DNA of 64,000 nt. It comes from Liolophura sinensis. Its lineage: Eukaryota; Mollusca; Polyplacophora; Chitonida; Chitonidae. Shown in pieces: positions 6,376-23,935 of this stretch. Made by a program: the position numbers and the translations under genes. The notes beneath the pieces were generated by a model, which did not search any database, had not been told where the DNA came from, and saw only the letters and a list, made by a program, of their open reading frames with translations. Every line of letters starts with the position of its first letter. The stretch's first letter is position 1. The stretch spans positions 23,169,608 to 23,233,607 of the forward strand of contig NC_088300.1 in NCBI RefSeq assembly GCF_032854445.1, read 5' to 3'.

Positions 6376-6561
6376 TGCTACCTCGGGTTTAATTGTCTTT
6401 GAGATAATTAACTCAAGGATTAAATCACCCATTTCCTGTGAGGCATCTCCCTTTGCTGCCTGAAGTCTGACTTGACATCGAGTAAGTCAGATGATTACAA
6501 TGTATTAAAATGAGTACCTGACATACCAACTCAGCATAGTTTACTCAAGATCAGTAAATCA

Positions 6562-6569
6562 TATAAATA
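6562..6569 (+). promoter_or_regulatory. Possible TATA box of forkhead copy B
   Basis: TATAAATA, 117 bases before the ATG at 6679; a start site near 6595 would leave a short 5' leader. Confidence 0.45.
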
Positions 6570-6678
6570 ATAAGTTCTTGCGGAGTAGGTCACCATCATT
6601 GCTCTGTGACCCATTACCAGTAAAACAACACATCAGCGCTAACAGTGCAAGTTTTCCGGGATTAACTACTATTCCAAT

Positions 6679-8368
6679 ATGTCTAACAAGAGAAAATTCA
6701 GCGAGAGTTTCCAGAACGACACAGATGTGGTACAGGAGTTTGCTCAAGTACCGAGCGTCATCTGCTCCCAGTCGCCAGGCCATGACCACTCCGTGTGCAA
6801 CAGTCAGCCAAGACCATCTCCGGAACACCATCGATCAGTTTATCAGCATTTATGAGGGACTTGACCATGCCGACGAGACTCGAAAACCCAACTTTTCCTA
6901 CACCGAACTCATCTTCCTGTCTATCATGCGATCTCCGAATTTCTGTCTTCCTATCAGTGAGATTTACCGTTACATTCAAACGCAGTATGCGTTCTTCCAC
7001 AATTCTAGCAAAGAACACTGGAAAAATGCTATTCGTCATAGCCTGTCTAAAACCAAATGTTTCACCAAGATTGGCCTGGAAAACCAGAAACCCCGAAACG
7101 GCGTTCTAAACAGGTATGTTATCTCTACTACTAATGCGAGCAGTTTGCTCAAGTTCAGAGCCATTTTCCGGATCTGACTGAAATGCTGCGAATGTATCCT
7201 TAACATCAATCATTTATTCATTCGTTTGCAAGTTTAATCACCGTTAAAATATTCCACCATGCTCTATGGCAATAACTGGTCTCTTCTTTCTTTGATATCC
7301 TTTTGTAATCCTACATGTGACAGAACATTTACAGTGAATAACTTACCAATGCTTAATTATAGCATGTTTATGTTTATTTCTTTTATAGATCGGCTTTCCT
7401 GTGGACAATAATGCCTAAAAGTCTACTGAACTTTGCCCGAGGGGATTACCGCCCCGACCAGTAAAGGAATGGCACCGAACGCCTTACGAAAGAACTTCGA
7501 CGAAGTGAGTACCACTGGTCTGTGGGAAGGATGCGTCTACACGCTAACCAGTAGGATTGAAGCCTTCAGAAACATCTTAAACACCAGTTCTAGTCCCGCT
7601 AAGATATTCCAGCTACAAGTGTGTCATTTTACAGATACAAACCAGTTTACTGTCACCAGCTTTTCACCAACTTCTGTTTCCACCGCTCCAATCTCTCTCC
7701 CTACCTCTCGCCCGGGTAACGCAGACGGAAACCATCTTCCAGTGCTCAGTCCACGTAATTTAAGTGCTATCCCCTCTCTCCCCACCCCACCTGCGTCTGA
7801 CCCGGCTAGCCCTAATAGTGAATCCAGCAGTGATTCTTTCTACTCGTCCAGTCCATCTGACAGTAGCGGCTACGACACTATTGGCGACATATCCAGCCCT
7901 GAGCACGGAAACAATGACCTTGACAGAAGAGGAGTTACCTCCCCTCATAGCCTCGATGTGGAGTTCAGCGGGCTTTTCCAATCCAATCAAAATACACATG
8001 TGATACCGGAAGTTGCGCCATCTTGCATTGAGAACATTCCTTTTGTACCTCAATTCCCTTCCGTCAATGAGACACTGGCTGCTTATTCGCCGAGCGTGTC
8101 TCTGCCGTGTTTTGTCGAAATGTCTGTGGTGGATCAAGACTTCAACTTACCCTGTCTTTATGAGTCGTGCCTGTCGACAGATTTCACACCAGATATCACG
8201 ATATCGCAAGAAGAAAGGTCTATTTTACTAGAGTTCTTGACCTTTTTGATCAGTATGGTGCAGTTTGTTATGTTTTTGCGTTGTTTCAAGACTCTTAACG
8301 CAGAGTTTGCTCACATGATCATGTTTAGAAATGTCATATATTCGTACTTGTATTGCTTGTATGTATGA
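6679..8368 (+). CDS. Divergent forkhead-box factor, copy B, two frameshifts
   Basis: Paralogue of copy A. Exon 1 is 6679-7113 and exon 2 starts at 7389; the 275-base intron (GTATGT ... TTATAG) interrupts the same split arginine codon as in copy A. The forkhead domain runs from RKPNFSYTEL through NAIRHSLS to FLWTIMPKSLL and FARGDYR. Downstream blocks GLWEGCV, EAFRNIL, SPAKIFQLQ, DSSGY and SSPE match copy A. Two one-base excesses break the frame: one in TTT at 6739-6741 (KRKFSESF lies before it, LLKYR after it) and one in CCCC at 7452-7455, which otherwise gives stop TAA at 7462-7464. With both allowed for, the frame stays open to TGA at 8366-8368. Alternatives: assembly errors, a young pseudogene, or a 135-residue product from the in-frame ATG at 6782 that ends just after the DNA-binding domain. 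The C-terminus after about 8220 does not resemble copy A. Confidence 0.8.
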
Positions 8369-11809: not shown

Positions 11810-14800
11810 TTACCCCTTGAAAACTGCACTTCGTCCCCGAATGAGGACGTCGACGTCAGAGAGAATGATCAGCAGTAATGTGATGACGATGAAGATGACG
11901 CCACTGTAACCCAGCCCCAGGGTCACGACGTCATTCTCGACGACGCTGTAGTACTTCCGCCGAACGGAGGAGAGATTTGATATGTTGATGGTCAGAGAAG
12001 AGAGTATGTCCCCGATGAAAGCCTGTCGTTCCGCCTCTGTTAGCGTCTGACAAGGGCACTCGCATTCCCCCTCGGACATAAACCAAAAGGTGTTTGTATC
12101 GCATTTGTACTCGTTCCACTCTCCCCCCGCCGACACGAGTTTCACGGATGGTCGCTCCACACCTATTGACAAACAAAATTGATTTAAGTTGGATATCGTC
12201 GGCAAGGAACTTTTGGACAAATGTGATGGCAAAGATCTGTTTCAATGGGGTTTAATGTTAACCAGAAGTTCCTGGTCATTCGTTCGTTCAGTTCATCTGC
12301 CCACAGAAAGAAAAAAATAACTGGTACCGCGATTAGTGTGCTTTCCCTTCAGTTTGCCAAGGTACCGCCACTGGGATTAGTGTGTTTTTCTATTCAGTTT
12401 ACTTAGGTACTGTCACTGGGCTTTAGTGTGCCTTTCCCTTCGGCTTAAATAGGAACTGTCACTAGGATTATTTTCGTTCCCCTTAAATTTGCTTAAGTAC
12501 TATCACTGTGATGAGTATGCCTTACCCTTCAGTTTGCCTAGGTACTGTCACTGCTTTTCCCTTAATTTTGATTAGGTCCTGTCAGTGGTATTGGTGTGCT
12601 TTTCCCTTGAGCTTGCTTAGGTCCTGTCAGTGGTATTGTCAGTGCTTTTCCCTTGAGCTTGCTTAGGTCCTGTCAGTGGTATTGGTGTGCTTTCCCCTTG
12701 AGCTTGCTTAGGTCCTGTCAGTGGTATTGGTGTGCTTTTCCCTTCAGTTTACATATGTACTGTCACTGGGATTAGTATAATCTTCTGTTCAGGTTGCTTA
12801 GGTATATATTTAAGAGTCTTAAATTGTTGGTAAAAATTCTAATCGTTATAACAATGGTGTTTGGGATTACAATTTACGCCTGTCAGACACTTACATAACT
12901 ACTGCTGCAAAGCACATTGGTTTTACCATGATACTTAACGATAGGTATCGTTATGTGAAGGTATATCCTCAAAAGACAATGCTCATTTGCATGATAACTA
13001 GTTCTAGTCTTAGTGTACTGAACCCATATCCCAACCGCAATCATCCTCTACCAGTATCGCTACTCCCACTAGCACCACTATACCCTATACCTCACCATAA
13101 CCCGTTCCCTACCCCATCAGTACGCGAGTACATGTTTGATAAAGCCCCACCATCACCCCCACCCCAAACCTTGCCCCTGTCCCAATCTCAATCAGCACCC
13201 GTACCCCAAACCGTATCCACGACTAACACCCCAATACATACAACTACTAATGAGGCCTACATGTGTTCGTGTACCTTGTAGGCATTTCTTGAACCACAGG
13301 GTCGATCCAGGTGTATTTACCATGTGGGCGTAGTCTTGGACAGCCTGGATGCTTTGGTGTCGGTACAGCTTGCATACACCCGTACTCACTAAGCTTGAAA
13401 AACTTGCTGCCCAGCATTCATTGCCGCTTAAATCATCATCGCTACACAGGTTCTGGCACTCGGTGGATGATTTCGCCGTGACATTTTCTGCTAATAGTGT
13501 GACCGGAATATCCAAGTCCGTTTCCTCATGTGCTTCGTACATGCACGGTTTCTCTGGGAAAAGAACATTTTACAAACCAATGGCAGGGTGTCTTAATTCA
13601 TTGGTTCATTCATGTTTAACGCCGTAATCCAGAATTTTTCACTTCACGGGTTTATGGGTTGAGGAAGCCTTAGCGCCTGGGGTAAACCATCGCCCGTTGC
13701 TAGGTACCCGCAAACCTTTAAAGATTTATAGTAGTAGTCGAAAATGCCAGAGCTGGATTCGAACATGTGACTTTATTGTCCACGGGTCTGATAGTAGCAA
13801 CAAGACAGCAAGGCCCCGTTTGTCCGTTAAGCAAATAAGAATAAAACGGCAGTTTAAAGAGAGAAAACAGTGAAGGAAACAGTGCTCTGCAAAGTTCCGA
13901 TATATTCATTATATCAGTTCAGCTAGTTTGAGAATGAAGGAAACTTTCTCCCCAGTCGTCATATACGCACAATTCAGCAGAGAATTTGTGTTCCCACAAA
14001 GCGATACTATAGTCTAGCGTTACGGATTGTTGGTCTGTAATTATAATCTTCTTTGTATTGGAGAGAAATATGGCTGCAAAGCTTACAGATTAAGTACGTC
14101 TATAAAAATGTTGAGGTTTCTGGGACTGAGATTTTAAGACCAAAAATGTTTCATAACATAATAGAACGTAAATTAAGATCGTCAAGTGTTCAAAGATATT
14201 TTAATTTGGACAAAACAGTTCGAATGATCCAAACAATAGGACTACATCAGGTCTACATGATCCTCTGTTAGTAATCCAAGGCTCATTTCTTTCAACTCCA
14301 CAAAATTGGGATATAAAACATGTCAGATTTAGCTTATTTGTTATTTTATTAGACATTTTGACTGCATTCGATTCAATTTTATTTCAAGTGCCTAGCTTTC
14401 AAAACTTACTGCTGCTGTGTTCGCAGAAAATCTCGGCGCTGGATCCACACCGAGCCGTTTCCCACGTCTGGGAAGACATCTCCACCCTGACACATTGCTC
14501 CGAGTTGTCGTTCGAGGGCTGCCCATATCCCCAGTTGTTATAGGTCACTGGAGTGCACGTGTTTGTCCAAATGAACTCGGTGGTGTCTAAGGTAGGCCGT
14601 ATCTGCCCTAACCAGATATGATCAATAGTTCTGGGGAAAGCAAATAAAAGTTACGTTCATTAAAGCCAGAAAAACCTTAATGGTATCTAATGTGGGTAGT
14701 ATCTGCCCAAACCACGTATGGTTAGGGCAACTGTAAGGGACGTAAATATGACACACGCTCCTGAAACCTCGGTGGTATCTGATGTGGGTAGAATATGTCC

Positions 14801-17409
14801 TTACTGCACATGGTTCACAGTTCTAGGAGAGATACATATGAGGTACTCTGCTTAAAAGGGTAACATATAATGTGGGTAATATCTACCCTAACCACACAGT
14901 GCCCACAATTCTTTTAGGGATACATATGAGATAAGCTCCTGAAACCCCGGTAGCATATAATGTGGGTAGTATCTGCTCTTACCGCATATAGCCCACAGAT
15001 CTAGGGGAGATACACATGAGAGACGCTCCTGAAACCTCGGTAGCATATTATGTGGGTAGTATCTGCTCTTACCACATATGGACCACAGATCTAGGGGAGA
15101 TACATATGAGATACACTCCTGAAACCTCGGTAGCATATAATGTGAGTTGTATCTGCCCTAACCACATATGGTCCACGGTTCTAGGGGAGATACACGAGAT
15201 ACACTCCTGAAACCTCGGTAGCATATAATGTGGGTTGTATCTGCTAACAACACATGGTCAACGGCCTTAGTTGAGGCAACTAGTAGTTACGCTCTGGACA
15301 GCTCAGTGGCATTTAATGTAGGTCGTATCATTTCTAACCACACATGGTTAACGGTTTTAAGGGAAGTAAACAAAAATCATTAAAACCGGATGCCGAATAT
15401 ATTTAGATGTAGTAGATTACGATATAAAAACGTCAATATAGAAAGTAAGACCAGAGCAGTGACAGCAGTGTGGAAGTTGGCAAATGGTCATACGTATTAC
15501 TTGTGGAATTCGGCCTTTTATCAATTTACCCTATCCCGGGTTTTATTCCGACTGTTCATCTATATGCTTAAAAGGCAGTAACGTACAACCCCTCCCTATC
15601 ACCTTGCCTTAAGCCAAATTAAGTAAAAGTAATGCAGTTATGTTAGTTGTAATTTACTAAACGTCACTAGCCTGGAATGCTCACAGTCAAAAGTGCCAAA
15701 AATGACAAGTAAGGCGCGTCTGTCTTTATAATTTATTTATTGAATCCTTACGCCATGTTTGTTTTGATATTTCGGTTTATTGGACAAAATTACAGACATG
15801 TTTGGTTTGTCTTTTATGGGAATTTTGATTTCGGTGGATTACGTTAAATTATACAACAAGAAACATAGCACAACAAAGATTTACAAGAACTATTTTAATG
15901 AAGCACAACATGTTTCCCCTTTTTCGTTCAAATCAAATCCAGAGCTGTTCTATTTTAAAGCTATAAACATTTCGTTCATTTGAAATATGCTCGGATTGTT
16001 CGTACTTCCAGGTAATTACTAAAAAATAGGTTGACTTGCTTCTTTCTGTTCCATATGCAAGGAATTGTATAAATTGGCGCGATACAAGAATACGACGCAG
16101 TTCGTGTGCAAACCTTGTGGAGTTTATTGGGGTCACATTAAGGCTCTATGTCATAGCTGCATTCGGAACTTTGTAACAGTTCCCATGCCATATACTGTTC
16201 GCCGCTAACGCGATACAAACGAGGATCTACGAGACTATACAATGTTTATCAAAGTTTGTTATTGTATTTACCAGTCGCCATGGAAACACATCACATCATC
16301 AAAACTGAAAAAACGTGTCGTTTTAACAACTTAAAGCTTTAGTAATGCTGGTAATGTTAAAGCCAGAGAGAGAGAAGTATTGATTTACTTTAAGCCCACT
16401 GGTTTCAACACGAATGATTTGATATCGCCCATCTTAAGATTCCATGCCTCGGACAGGATTTACAGGTCCATTGTCCCTTAACAATGGTTATTAACAGATA
16501 TATCGAACTTAAGAGAATTAACGAGAATATTTCCAACACATACTTGTTTGTCAGCTGCTGAATGGTTGCCATGACGACCGCGTGTTTGTTATCGTCTTCG
16601 ATGTGCACTAAGTATCCACCAAATCGACCGCATGCCTCAGTGGCCTCATCCCACGTGGCAGTTTGATTGTAGTACACCAAAGTCGTTAAGTTAGATTGAG
16701 CAGCGGAGCCGCCGGGAGCTGTGAAAACAAAATACTGATATTGCGATAGTTGCAAACACTCTAATCTTAAATCTAATCTTACAAAAAGAGGGCACCTCAG
16801 ACATTTTTCTGTGGTTTCAAGACAAAACCGCAGAATGGAACCGGTACCGATAACATTACCATTACCAATTCAAATGCAATTTGACTATATTACCAGCTTT
16901 TTCTTTCACAGCTTTTTGGTGTAATCGCACTTTACATTTTTTAACATGCATGTCATATGCTGGTTCAATATATAAGAATGCCATACAATTCTTAAGTCTT
17001 CCGTCTATATTCTAGCCACCGGTGCGTACAATACACAATGATGACTGGTAGAGGAACCTGTCTCACTCCTCTGTTTGAACTACCGAGACTTTAACATCGG
17101 TAATCATGAGACTGCCTCGCTTTGCATTAAGCATTAGAGAAATGGATCAAGCGCTGGTCGACCCCGTGTTATTATACAATGACTGGCTTGGGGCTCGTGT
17201 CTGGTGTTTTCGGCATGGCGAAGTGGCAGCACTTACAATATGTCAGTATTGGATACCGCTTGCTACAAGGAGGCACAGTCGTGATATGACCGAAATGATT
17301 TTGAAATTGACGTTAAACTTCAATCAAACTAGCAAATATTGAACATACCTGGTGGACCGACTATTGCCAGTAAAACTGCCACCAAAATCATTTCAATGGC
17401 GGCAGACAT
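11810..17409 (-). CDS. C-type lectin / PAN single-pass membrane receptor 1
   Basis: Five coding exons on the minus strand: 17409-17349, 16718-16544, 14630-14410, 13553-13275 and 12162-11810. All have GT-AG borders and the joined frame is open for 362 residues. Residues 1-20 are a signal peptide (MILVAVLLAIVG). A C-type lectin domain spans about 32-150 (VYYNQTATWDEA, WLGQI, NNWGYGQPSND, IFCEH). The sugar-site motif is QPS rather than EPN or QPD, and WND is replaced by WET, so calcium-dependent sugar binding is doubtful. A PAN/apple-like exon follows at about 153-245 (STECQNLC, NECWAASF, VCKLYR, FKKCL). The last exon has CECPC, an extracellular helix (LTEAERQAFIGDIL), SSVRRKYYSV and a transmembrane segment near 326-346 with a short tail. 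It is likely a surface recognition receptor (inference). The ATG directly follows TTTTTTTCAG, suggesting a 5' UTR intron. Confidence 0.9.
12322..12810. repeat. 45-bp minisatellite in receptor 1 intron 4
   Basis: About ten imperfect copies of a unit built from GGTACTGTCACTGGGATTAG, TGTGCTTTTCCCTTCAG and a TTTGCTTA-like end. Near 12560-12740 the copies switch to a GGTCCTGTCAGTGGTATTGG subtype, which suggests separate rounds of expansion. Confidence 0.85.
13140..13185 (-). other. G-rich tract downstream of the exon 4 donor
   Basis: The plus strand is a C/A-rich run (ACCATCACCCCCACCCC, TTGCCCCTGTCCC), so the intron RNA of receptor 1 is G-rich, with GGGG runs separated by 1 to 8 bases about 90 bases after the exon 4 donor. 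It is close to, but not strictly, a canonical quadruplex. Confidence 0.4.
13605..13740 (-). mobile_element. Diverged SINE S1-like fragment
   Basis: TTTAACGCCGTAATCCAGAA and GGTTTATGGGTTGAGGAAGC match the S1 core with many changes; it resembles the copy at 52805-52900 more than the typical S1. It lies in intron 3 of receptor 1. Confidence 0.55.
14655..15375 (-). repeat. Tandem array of receptor 1 exon 3 start plus acceptor
   Basis: Eight further copies, about 90 bases each, of the 5' part of exon 3 (14630-14570) with its splice acceptor stand head to tail in intron 2. Copy 6 (about 15125-15211) reads CCTAG|AACC and then TVDHMWLGQI and ATEV in the same frame, against TIDHIWLGQI and TTEF in the real exon. 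Copy 1 (about 14680-14766) reads ACAG| then NHTWFGQI and PTLDT. Copies 2 to 5 are interrupted by stops; in copies 2, 4 and 5 the TGGTTAGGG site has become a donor-like GTAAGR lying about 18 bases after the acceptor. Copy 8 has lost its AG. Confidence 0.85.
15410..15690 (+). repeat. Dispersed repeat S3, copy 1
   Basis: Contains GACAGCAGTGTGG, TGGCAAATGGTCATACGT, AATTCGGCC, GGGTTTTATTCCGACTG and ACGTCACTAGCCTGGAAT. The same order is found at 26928-27190, 50770-51060, 51140-51310 and, inverted, 61165-61320. Confidence 0.75.
17090..17335 (+). mobile_element. SINE S2-like, diverged
   Basis: ACTTTAACATCGGTAATCAT, CTGCCTCGCTTTGC and ending near GACGTTAAACTTCAATCAA follow the order of S2 with many changes. 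It lies in intron 1 of receptor 1, just before the signal-peptide exon in plus-strand order. Confidence 0.55.
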
Positions 17410-18434: not shown

Positions 18435-19290
18435 GGAATTTTGTCTAACCTTTATTGAAGACGAAATCAACAGTATTCTGTAATGTTGTTAAACCAGTAA
18501 TGTAGATGAACCAATCAGTAATAGGGCTTTTTGTGAAATTAGTATTGCAGAAGTGCACGTTCTACTGAAGAATCAATCAGTAATCTGACATTTTGGTTTC
18601 ACCTGTACTGTTGAAGAATCAATCAGTGATCTGACATTTCTTGCACCTGTACTATTAAAGAATCAATCAGTAATGTGACATTTCGTTTCATCTGTATTGT
18701 TGAAGAATCAATCAGTGATCTGACATTTTGTTTCATCCGAACTGTTGGAGAATCAATCCGTAATGTAGCATTTTGTTTCACATGTACAGTTGAAGAATAA
18801 ATCAGAAATCATTTTAATTAACGTGTACTGTTTAATAATGAATGAGTAATCTAGCATTTTTTTTTCAACTGTATTATTGGGGAATCAATCAGTGATTTGG
18901 CATTTTGTTTCACCTGTACTGTTGAAGAAATAATCAATAATCTGAAATTTTGTTTCATCTGTACTCTTGAAGAATTAAGCTGTAACCTAGAACTTTGCTT
19001 CACCTGTACAGTTGAGAAATAATCAGTAATCTGATAAATTGTTTCACCTTTACTGTTGAAGAACCAATCAGAAATCTATTATTTTGTTTAACCTGTACTG
19101 TTGAAGAATCAGTCAGTAATATGACATTTTGTTTCATCTGTACTGTTGAAGAATCAATCAGAAATCTTACATTTCGTTTCATCTGTAATGTTGAAGAATT
19201 CACGAGTAATCAAGCATTTTGTTTCACTTTTACTGTTGAAGAATTTTCAGTAATCTGATATTTTGTTTCACTTTTAGTGTGGAAGAATCA
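18435..19290. repeat. 45-bp minisatellite, about 19 copies
   Basis: The unit is TACTGTTGAAGAATCAATCA followed by GTAATCTGACATTTTG and TTTCACCTG. Because 45 is a multiple of three, long frames stay open on the minus strand (repeating SSTVQMKQN-like peptides); I read this as a by-product and not as a gene. Confidence 0.9.
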
Positions 19291-19519
19291 GTGAGTAGTC
19301 TGGTATCATTAAAAATCTTAAATTTCTCATAACATAAAGTAACAAAACCGATAAAAAAATAAATGAATACATTTCATGCGTGATATAAATCCATGCACAG
19401 TATAAATCCTGAAAAGAAAACAGAAATGCAATATATCCTGAATTTAAAGGACACATATATCCTGAGGACATTTTTTCAAATTGTCAAATTACTACACAAA
19501 AGATTTATCAATTTATGCA

Positions 19520-19620: not shown

Positions 19621-20034
19621 GAATAAAAAAACAGAGTTTAGCATGTATCTGACGAACTTTATCACATGTCCCACAGCTTTTCTTCCATCGTTTGTTCAAC
19701 TTCAACTCAGTCTCATACTAGGCCTTACGATTTTAGTATTTCAAGACTAAAGTCATAAGCTAAAAGCATGCACAAGTTGTATACGGTAAATAATACAACG
19801 TGCTGGATATACCTGCTGACGCACCATTGTCGTGCCATTTGCTCCCATGTAGACAAGTCAGTGTTTCCCATCGAAAAGACGTCCACAGTGGATCTTAACT
19901 CACATGATTTCACGCCGTCTTCACCTGGATGAATTAGATAACGCAGGTGAATCTGACCGCTTACTGGTGGATTTCACAGGGCGCCCCATACCCGAAATGA
20001 GTGATTGATCGACTTTGATCGATTGAACGTCGCC

Positions 20035-20510
20035 ACACGCTGGATGACTGGGTAACTGTGATGGGCTCCACCACACATTGCTATAGCCTGGATGACTGGG
20101 TAACTGTGATGGGCTCCACCACACGTCGTTATACCCTGGATGACTGGGTAACTGTGATTACCCAGTTGCCATACCATGGATGACTGGGTAACTGTGATGG
20201 GCTCCACCACACGTCGTCATGCCCTGGATGACTGGGTAACCGTAATGGGCTCCACCACACGTCGTCATGCCCTGGATGACTGGGTAACCGTGAGGGGCTC
20301 CACCATACGTCGTCATGCCCTGGATGACTGGGTAACCGTGAGGGACTCCACCACATGTTACCATAACCTGGATGGCTGGGTAACTGTGATGGACTCCACC
20401 ACAAGTTGCCATATACTTGATGAAGGTAATTGTGATTCGCTCCACCACACGTCGTCATAGTCTGGATGACTGGGTATCGACGATGGGTTCCACCACAGGT
20501 CGAGTTAAAT
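20035..20510. repeat. 48-bp minisatellite, about ten copies
   Basis: The unit is CTGGATGACTGGGTAACTGT, GATGGGCTCCACCACACG and TCGTCATGCC. One unit near 20155-20170 is shortened. A period of 48 keeps several frames open on both strands (DDWVTVMGSTTRRHAL on plus, WWSPSQLPSHPG on minus). Confidence 0.92.
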
Positions 20511-20633
20511 AACGTATCTTCACACTTTAACCAAACTGTGAAACAGTGTTGAATTCCTCCACTTGTCTTGAAACTTTTGGCAAATTATGGCTTGAATAAA
20601 ATAGTGCGGATTTTCCCCTTGAAAAATAATTAG

Positions 20634-23639: not shown

Positions 23640-23935
23640 TGTTTAAACTCAGACGATCTTCCTCACCTGGTTTCTATGCAGGTACAAACTCAAACCTACT
23701 TACTCTTTTGTTTTTTATCCAGGTTCAAACTCCAACTTGCTTCCTCGCTTGTTTTCTATGTAGGTTCTTGTTTTTTCTGCTGGTGCAAACTCGGTCATAC
23801 CTCCTCACTAGTTTCCTGTGTAGGTGCAAACTCAGACCTTTTCGTCACTTATTTTCAACGCAGGTTCAGATCCACATCATCTTCCTTGCTTCTGTGCAGG
23901 TGAAAACTCAATGTGCTTCCTGTCTAACGACCATT
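23640..23935. repeat. Tandem units of about 40-55 bases, each starting (C)AGGT
   Basis: Six units each open with CAGGT or TAGGT plus GCAAACTC-like sequence and end TTGTTTTCTATG-like. Every boundary therefore reads AG|GT, which looks like a splice acceptor and donor back to back. No coding exon is recognised. Confidence 0.7.

Follow-up and report, generated by a model that had tools for sequence, protein, structure and literature searches.

Tandem copies of an intron-exon edge in a C-type lectin receptor gene of the mollusc Liolophura sinensis

The intron upstream of exon 3 of a lectin receptor gene on the minus strand contains eight diverged copies of a unit of about 90 bp (15389-14679), each of which combines some 35-38 bp of intron end with some 52-55 bp of exon 3 start, and the real edge of exon 3 (14668-14579) forms a ninth unit. 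Positions are those of the window, the whole 64-kb stretch of DNA that was analyzed. The array is real and far beyond chance, and with a probability of roughly 0.86 we regard it as a minisatellite that took its start over an intron-exon boundary, of the type called "mirage" in amphioxus, that is passive and leaves splicing normal.

The receptor gene and its array

The gene hosting the array is, as judged by domain matches and splice phases, a C-type lectin / PAN receptor (Table 1). Exons 2 and 3, when joined, gave a Lectin_C match with E=1.7e-15 in a Pfam search, and the splice phases read from the sequence are compatible at every junction of the gene. The donor of exon 2 reads CAA/GTATGT, and the junction from 16544 to 14630 that the first-pass annotation had drawn between exons 2 and 3 proved correct, phase included, when checked on the sequence. 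For the likely exon 1 there are further in-frame ATGs at 17409 and 17457. The last exon (12162-11810) had no match in the Pfam search, and its hydrophobic segment is probably transmembrane. Note that the intron downstream of the PAN exon holds an array of its own, with 10 copies of a 45-bp unit (12331-12776), which by eye matched neither the PAN exon nor the last exon that follows.

Table 1. Predicted exons of the receptor gene, units of the array and potential micro-exons
Feature	Position	Strand	Basis or remark
Likely exon 1, signal peptide MILVAVLLAIVGPP	17349..17391	-	Predicted; phase agrees with exon 2
Exon 2, C-type lectin domain, first half	16544..16718	-	Lectin_C match, splice phases
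c1, outermost; frame open over copied part, acceptor AG lost	15305..15389	-	HMM E=6e-17, alignment
c2; AG off by one base, 2-base deletion	15217..15304	-	HMM, alignment
c3; AG and frame retained in copied part (TVDHMWLGQI)	15129..15216	-	HMM, sequence
c4; acceptor and GTAAGA donor-like site	15039..15128	-	HMM, site scores
c4 potential 18-nt micro-exon	15090-15073	-	TGA formed at junction
c5; acceptor and GTAAGA donor-like site	14949..15038	-	HMM, site scores
c5 potential 18-nt micro-exon	15000-14983	-	No stop
c6; weak AAAAG acceptor, in-frame TAG	14859..14948	-	HMM, site scores
c7; acceptor and GTAAGG donor-like site	14771..14860	-	HMM, site scores
c7 potential 18-nt micro-exon	14822-14805	-	No stop
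c8, nearest the exon; AG and frame retained in copied part (NHTWFGQI)	14679..14770	-	HMM, sequence
Ninth unit (c9), real intron end and first ~52 bp of exon 3	14579..14668	-	HMM of c1-c8
Exon 3, C-type lectin domain, second half	14410..14630	-	Lectin_C match, splice phases
Exon 4, PAN domain	13275..13553	-	PAN_1 E=4.2e-5 (Pfam search)
Last exon, cysteine-rich stalk and hydrophobic segment	11810..12162	-	Predicted from open frame and phase

Eight tandem copies of the exon 3 start with its acceptor, at a period of about 90 bases, had been described in the first-pass annotation, and this description is confirmed. Tandem Repeats Finder called 14688-15244 with a period of 90, and a fuzzy motif search returned nine occurrences spaced 86-100 bp apart, the last one inside exon 3. 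A profile HMM was built from the eight intronic copies only; its matches to those eight hold by construction, and it also recovers the edge of exon 3 (14666-14580, E=2.1e-11), whereas the next-best match within the window has E=0.11. The unit alignment comprises 38 columns on the intron side and 51 on the exon side, and the unit thus straddles the intron-exon boundary. The proposal in the first-pass annotation of a minisatellite begun within an exon is supported, with the correction that profile HMM and alignment both put the unit across the boundary.

We number the copies from c1, farthest from the exon, to c8, nearest to it, with c9 as the exon itself; the first-pass annotation had counted from the exon outward. 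Identity across the copies ranges from 50 to 92%. The inner copies c3-c5 share 87-92% identity with each other, while c1, c8 and the exon reach 50-74% with the rest, and c1 only 50-61% with all others. By these pairwise values the array appears to have a homogenized interior and divergent edges, the usual minisatellite pattern. Tandem arrays are hard to assemble and the length of this one may be wrong, but an assembly artefact is extremely improbable as an explanation: with differences of 8-50% among the copies, long reads should be distinguishable, and the array DNA was found at a single place in the 609-Mb assembly, in a search that skips very common words. The same single location, with the same proviso on common words, led us to reject an array that is copied elsewhere or borne by a transposon. 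Tandemly duplicated alternative exons were likewise rejected; in these every copy would comprise an entire exon and its two splice sites, and the copies found here carry about 52-55 of the 221 bp of exon 3 and lack its donor.

The course of events that we favor would start with the tandem duplication of a segment of about 90 bp, reaching from the intron's 3' end over some 52-55 bp of exon 3 start, which would then have been amplified and partly homogenized as a minisatellite. Since the remainder of exon 3 follows just one copy, the last, every extra copy would become intronic and bear a relic acceptor. The spliceosome would be expected to choose the last and strongest acceptor, and the copies would drift as intron. 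Both the mechanism of duplication, by slippage or unequal exchange, and normal splicing are what we infer from this arrangement. The protein encoded by exon 3 has 12 matches in the genome including itself, the other 11 at 26-39% identity; the exon side of the unit is thus lectin coding sequence with distant paralogues, which identifies the exon as the source and the array as its derivative.

Splice signals in the copies and the consequences of their use

An acceptor AG stands in the aligned columns of five of the eight copies (c3-c7). It is displaced by one or two bases in c2 and c8 (two in c8) and lost in c1, whose open frame over the copied part reads TVNHVWLEMIRPTLNATEL by eye. GTAAGR is present in three of the eight, c4, c5 and c7. 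In the first-pass annotation two copies, its copies 1 and 6, had been said to keep both AG and phase, and inspection of the sequence bears this out for c8 (CPNHTWFGQILPTLDTIK) and c3 (TVDHMWLGQIQLTLYATE); the donor-like sites assigned to its copies 2, 4 and 5, our c7, c5 and c4, are also there, exactly 18 nt past the acceptor.

The copied acceptors had further been proposed as a source of alternative lectin starts. For simple use of an acceptor this is contradicted: seven copies carry an AG at or close to the aligned site, and extension toward exon 3 from each of them meets a premature stop. The stop comes after 7 codons in four of these (c2, c4, c5, c7), while c6 reads on for 9 codons, c8 for 36 and c3 for 37. 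Only the extension from c8 reaches exon 3, and it does so out of frame. The same holds for any AG of the array: with each of the 47 sites in 15395-14641, a stop interrupts the frame before exon 3 is complete, and alternative starts by extension were therefore rejected.

Splice sites were scored with a crude matrix of generic metazoan frequencies, not trained on this genome. On this scale the real acceptor of exon 3 scores 8.6, the second highest of 324 AG sites in 17500-11800, and the copied acceptors score 3.2 (c7), 2.8 (c8), 2.6 (c4), 2.5 (c3 and c5), 0.4 (c6) and -1.7 (c2). Away from the copied acceptor positions, the highest score within the array is 5.0, for the AG at 14847, which remains below the real acceptor. 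Note that the real acceptor of the PAN exon scores only 2.5 on the same crude matrix, so that by this measure the copied acceptors are not dead. The copies might then serve as decoys, one of the options raised in the first-pass annotation, and as such lower receptor output, the use of any of them as an acceptor leading to a stop and to decay. This would fit the uniform occurrence of premature stops, in 7/7 copies and at 47/47 sites, as well as the several copied acceptors that score in the range of the PAN acceptor. We nevertheless consider such a role highly unlikely, as the real exon 3 acceptor is much stronger and neutral drift predicts an identical outcome.

The donor-like sites of c4, c5 and c7 score 4.1, 4.0 and 1.3, ranking 4th, 5th and 23rd among the 356 GT sites scored over the gene region. 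The real donors within this set, from which that of exon 2 is absent, score 5.7, 2.4 and 0.5, and the sites in c4 and c5 exceed two of these three. Latent or regulated micro-exons are therefore conceivable, in which the mRNA would include 18 nt from c5 or c7, or from c4 acting as a poison exon, and would gain six residues or a stop just ahead of IWLG in the lectin domain. The exact 18-nt distance between AG and GTAAGR in all three copies and the rank of the c4 and c5 donors are in line with this, and so is the outcome of inclusion: c5, c7 or both keep the frame and form no stop at the junctions, with six residues contributed by each, and c4 creates a TGA. We still judge micro-exons to be unlikely. 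Exons of 18 nt are usually poorly recognized, and c4 and c5 owe their donor-like sites to a T-to-A change in TGGTTAGG that the two copies may share through homogenization. Moreover, amphioxus mirages with AG and GT signals are reported as not disturbing splicing (PMC3087553, PMC3902484).

If the array is passive, as we prefer to read it, the copies should be free of coding constraint. Compared with the exon, the consensus of c1-c8 shows differences at 8/17 third positions and at 5/34 first and second positions (Fisher p=0.019, small samples), the pattern expected when coding selection acts on the exon only. Within the set of copies, third positions vary no more than first and second ones, with non-consensus rates of 0.118 and 0.179, respectively (p=0.18), and by this codon-position comparison of c1-c8, again on small samples, there is no sign of a constraint on frame. 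Variability over c1-c8 is slightly lower in the exon-derived half than in the intron half (0.159 vs 0.220, p=0.047), a difference that does not hold over c2-c7 (0.135 vs 0.154, p=0.29), both comparisons being made on small numbers. The lower variability over c1-c8 could stem from constraint, from conversion by the exon or from the alignment. Nothing in the DNA points to use of the copies, and we regard the array as probably inert.

Exon edges elsewhere in the genome

Exon edges were also inspected at 84 other loci, 37 lectin, 24 P450, 16 Sushi and 7 homeobox or haemocyanin, the array locus itself (L001, L002) being excluded. Copies that span a boundary on the donor side were found in three of them, L005, L027 and L086. 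The Sushi locus L086 contains 10.9 copies of a 53-bp unit (L086:1654-2232), 40 bp of which correspond to the exon end. Its CAGGTGAG is intact at eight sites, the real one and seven further ones, and several units have an acceptor-like CTTCCCCAG 16-17 nt upstream of it. In the lectin locus L027, with an exon end read at 1491, a minisatellite of about 9 copies of a 27-bp unit (L027:1268-1503) begins 13 bp before the donor of the exon; its units have GTAGGT, GTGAGT, GTAAAT or GTGGGT in the place of the donor, and in some the GT is gone. In the other lectin locus, the last 27 bp of the exon and 16 bp of intron (L005:1169-1211) are repeated 312 bp downstream with 81% identity, and the intervening sequence looks by eye like decayed repeats, without a call by Tandem Repeats Finder. 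Together with the exon 3 array on the acceptor side, these donor-side cases indicate, as far as the boundaries read from the sequence go, that both sides of exons are affected. No boundary-spanning case was confirmed at the 24 P450 loci, which gave two edge hits (L049, L051), or at the 7 loci of homeobox or haemocyanin type. Two observations on these classes fit a molluscan genome. One 11.4-kb stretch of the assembly holds eight matches to the beta-sandwich model of haemocyanin, an arrangement of molluscan type, and L012 is a Hox gene with a homeodomain followed by AIKELNEQ, a UbdA-like tail of protostome type.

Are exon edges then hot spots for repeats? Same-strand self-similarity (E<1e-4) was detected in 6/168 exon-edge windows and in 43/504 control windows from the flanks (Fisher p=0.038), where edge windows are centered on match ends and not on proven exon ends and flank windows may contain unrecognized exons. 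Edges are thus depleted, and the idea of a hot spot was rejected. By class, edges matched in 3/74 lectin, 2/48 P450, 0/14 homeobox or haemocyanin and 1/32 Sushi windows, and flanks in 18/222, 9/144, 4/42 and 12/96, respectively; this sample includes overlapping loci (L007 and L030 are one exon) and three loci, L072, L074 and L085, that lie inside long multi-Sushi exons as judged from long open frames and positions. Opposite-strand matches occurred in 4/168 edges and 9/504 flanks. Four of the six edge matches were read by eye, and of these the three donor-side cases spanned the splice boundary and L029 did not; the other two are the P450 matches L049 and L051. Repeats touch exon edges less than flanks, as if they were selected against there, and this depletion supports a passive origin of the array.

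The genome is rich in minisatellites: in the 64-kb window, Tandem Repeats Finder reported 26 rows that represent about 13 arrays, three with units below 10 bases. Besides those already described, they include 16.5 copies of a 45-bp unit at 18566-19302, a 41-bp repeat of 2.7 copies at 23658-23767 whose unit includes an acceptor-like TTTTCTATGCAG, and a 48-bp array at 20027-20502, its unit a multiple of 3, that lies partly in an open frame of 151 codons (20129-20584, minus strand) with WWSPSQLPSHPGYGNM-like repeats. Unit lengths of 18, 27, 45, 48 and 90 in the window are divisible by 3 and those of 25, 28, 31 and 41 are not; the divisibility of several is perhaps due to chance. The window further holds two open frames on opposite strands, 2148-2633 and 6509-7177 (FTYTELIFLAIMRSPNFCLPITEIYRYI...), which we take to resemble diverged forkhead domains. 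It is possible, and we propose it tentatively, that mirages are widespread in this mollusc genome and no peculiarity of cephalochordates; as minisatellites that begin at exon edges they would continually scatter ready-made acceptors and donors into introns and occasionally yield micro-exons such as c5, with its six in-frame residues, in fast-evolving receptor genes.

Comparison with known systems

Tandem repeats across intron-exon boundaries were named "mirage" in amphioxus, where both boundaries are described as affected and the cases include the globin genes BflGb6 and BflGb9, Adh3 and TnC (PMC3087553); for amphioxus PGBD5, repeats of 60 and 108 bp at splice sites are given in a second paper (PMC3902484). 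According to the first, many but not all units retain AG or GT signals, inner units are homogenized with the boundary units excluded, and RT-PCR of BflGb6 suggested undisturbed splicing (PMC3087553). The lectin exon 3 array shares the anatomy of BflGb6. Its terminal unit is the authentic exon edge (HMM E=2.1e-11), splice signals are retained in part (AG in 5/8 copies, GTAAGR in 3/8), and by pairwise identity its interior is homogenized and its edges are not. The differences from BflGb6 are a 90-bp unit and older-looking copies, with 50-92% identity instead of 81-100%. The host also differs, a mollusc instead of the cephalochordate of the named mirages, which we treat as a matter of range and not of definition.

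In the potato RdRp gene an intron was gained through a tandem duplication reaching from intron 1 into exon 2, the duplicated segment carrying an acceptor and an exon start, as in the lectin array (PMC4974935). The potato duplication made a new, spliced intron, whereas the lectin array consists of eight copies with no sign of a new exon or intron. For human genes in segmental duplications, minisatellites at exon-intron boundaries are reported as possibly altering gene structure; the internal tandem repeats described there are recent expansions in primate paralogues, about half of them coding, and in this they are unlike the lectin array (PMC2812944). A mollusc case of a boundary-spanning array was not found in the open-licence literature, and a paper on Conus mentions intronic microsatellites and, in its available portion, no such array (PMC3862624). 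The lectin array thus extends the mirage kind to a phylum unnamed in the open-licence literature found, with several cases in one genome. Tandem duplication over exon edges has been proposed as one route by which introns and exons arise anew, and the four arrays described here, the lectin array and those in 3/84 sampled loci, provide an independent lineage, that of a mollusc, in which this route can be tested.
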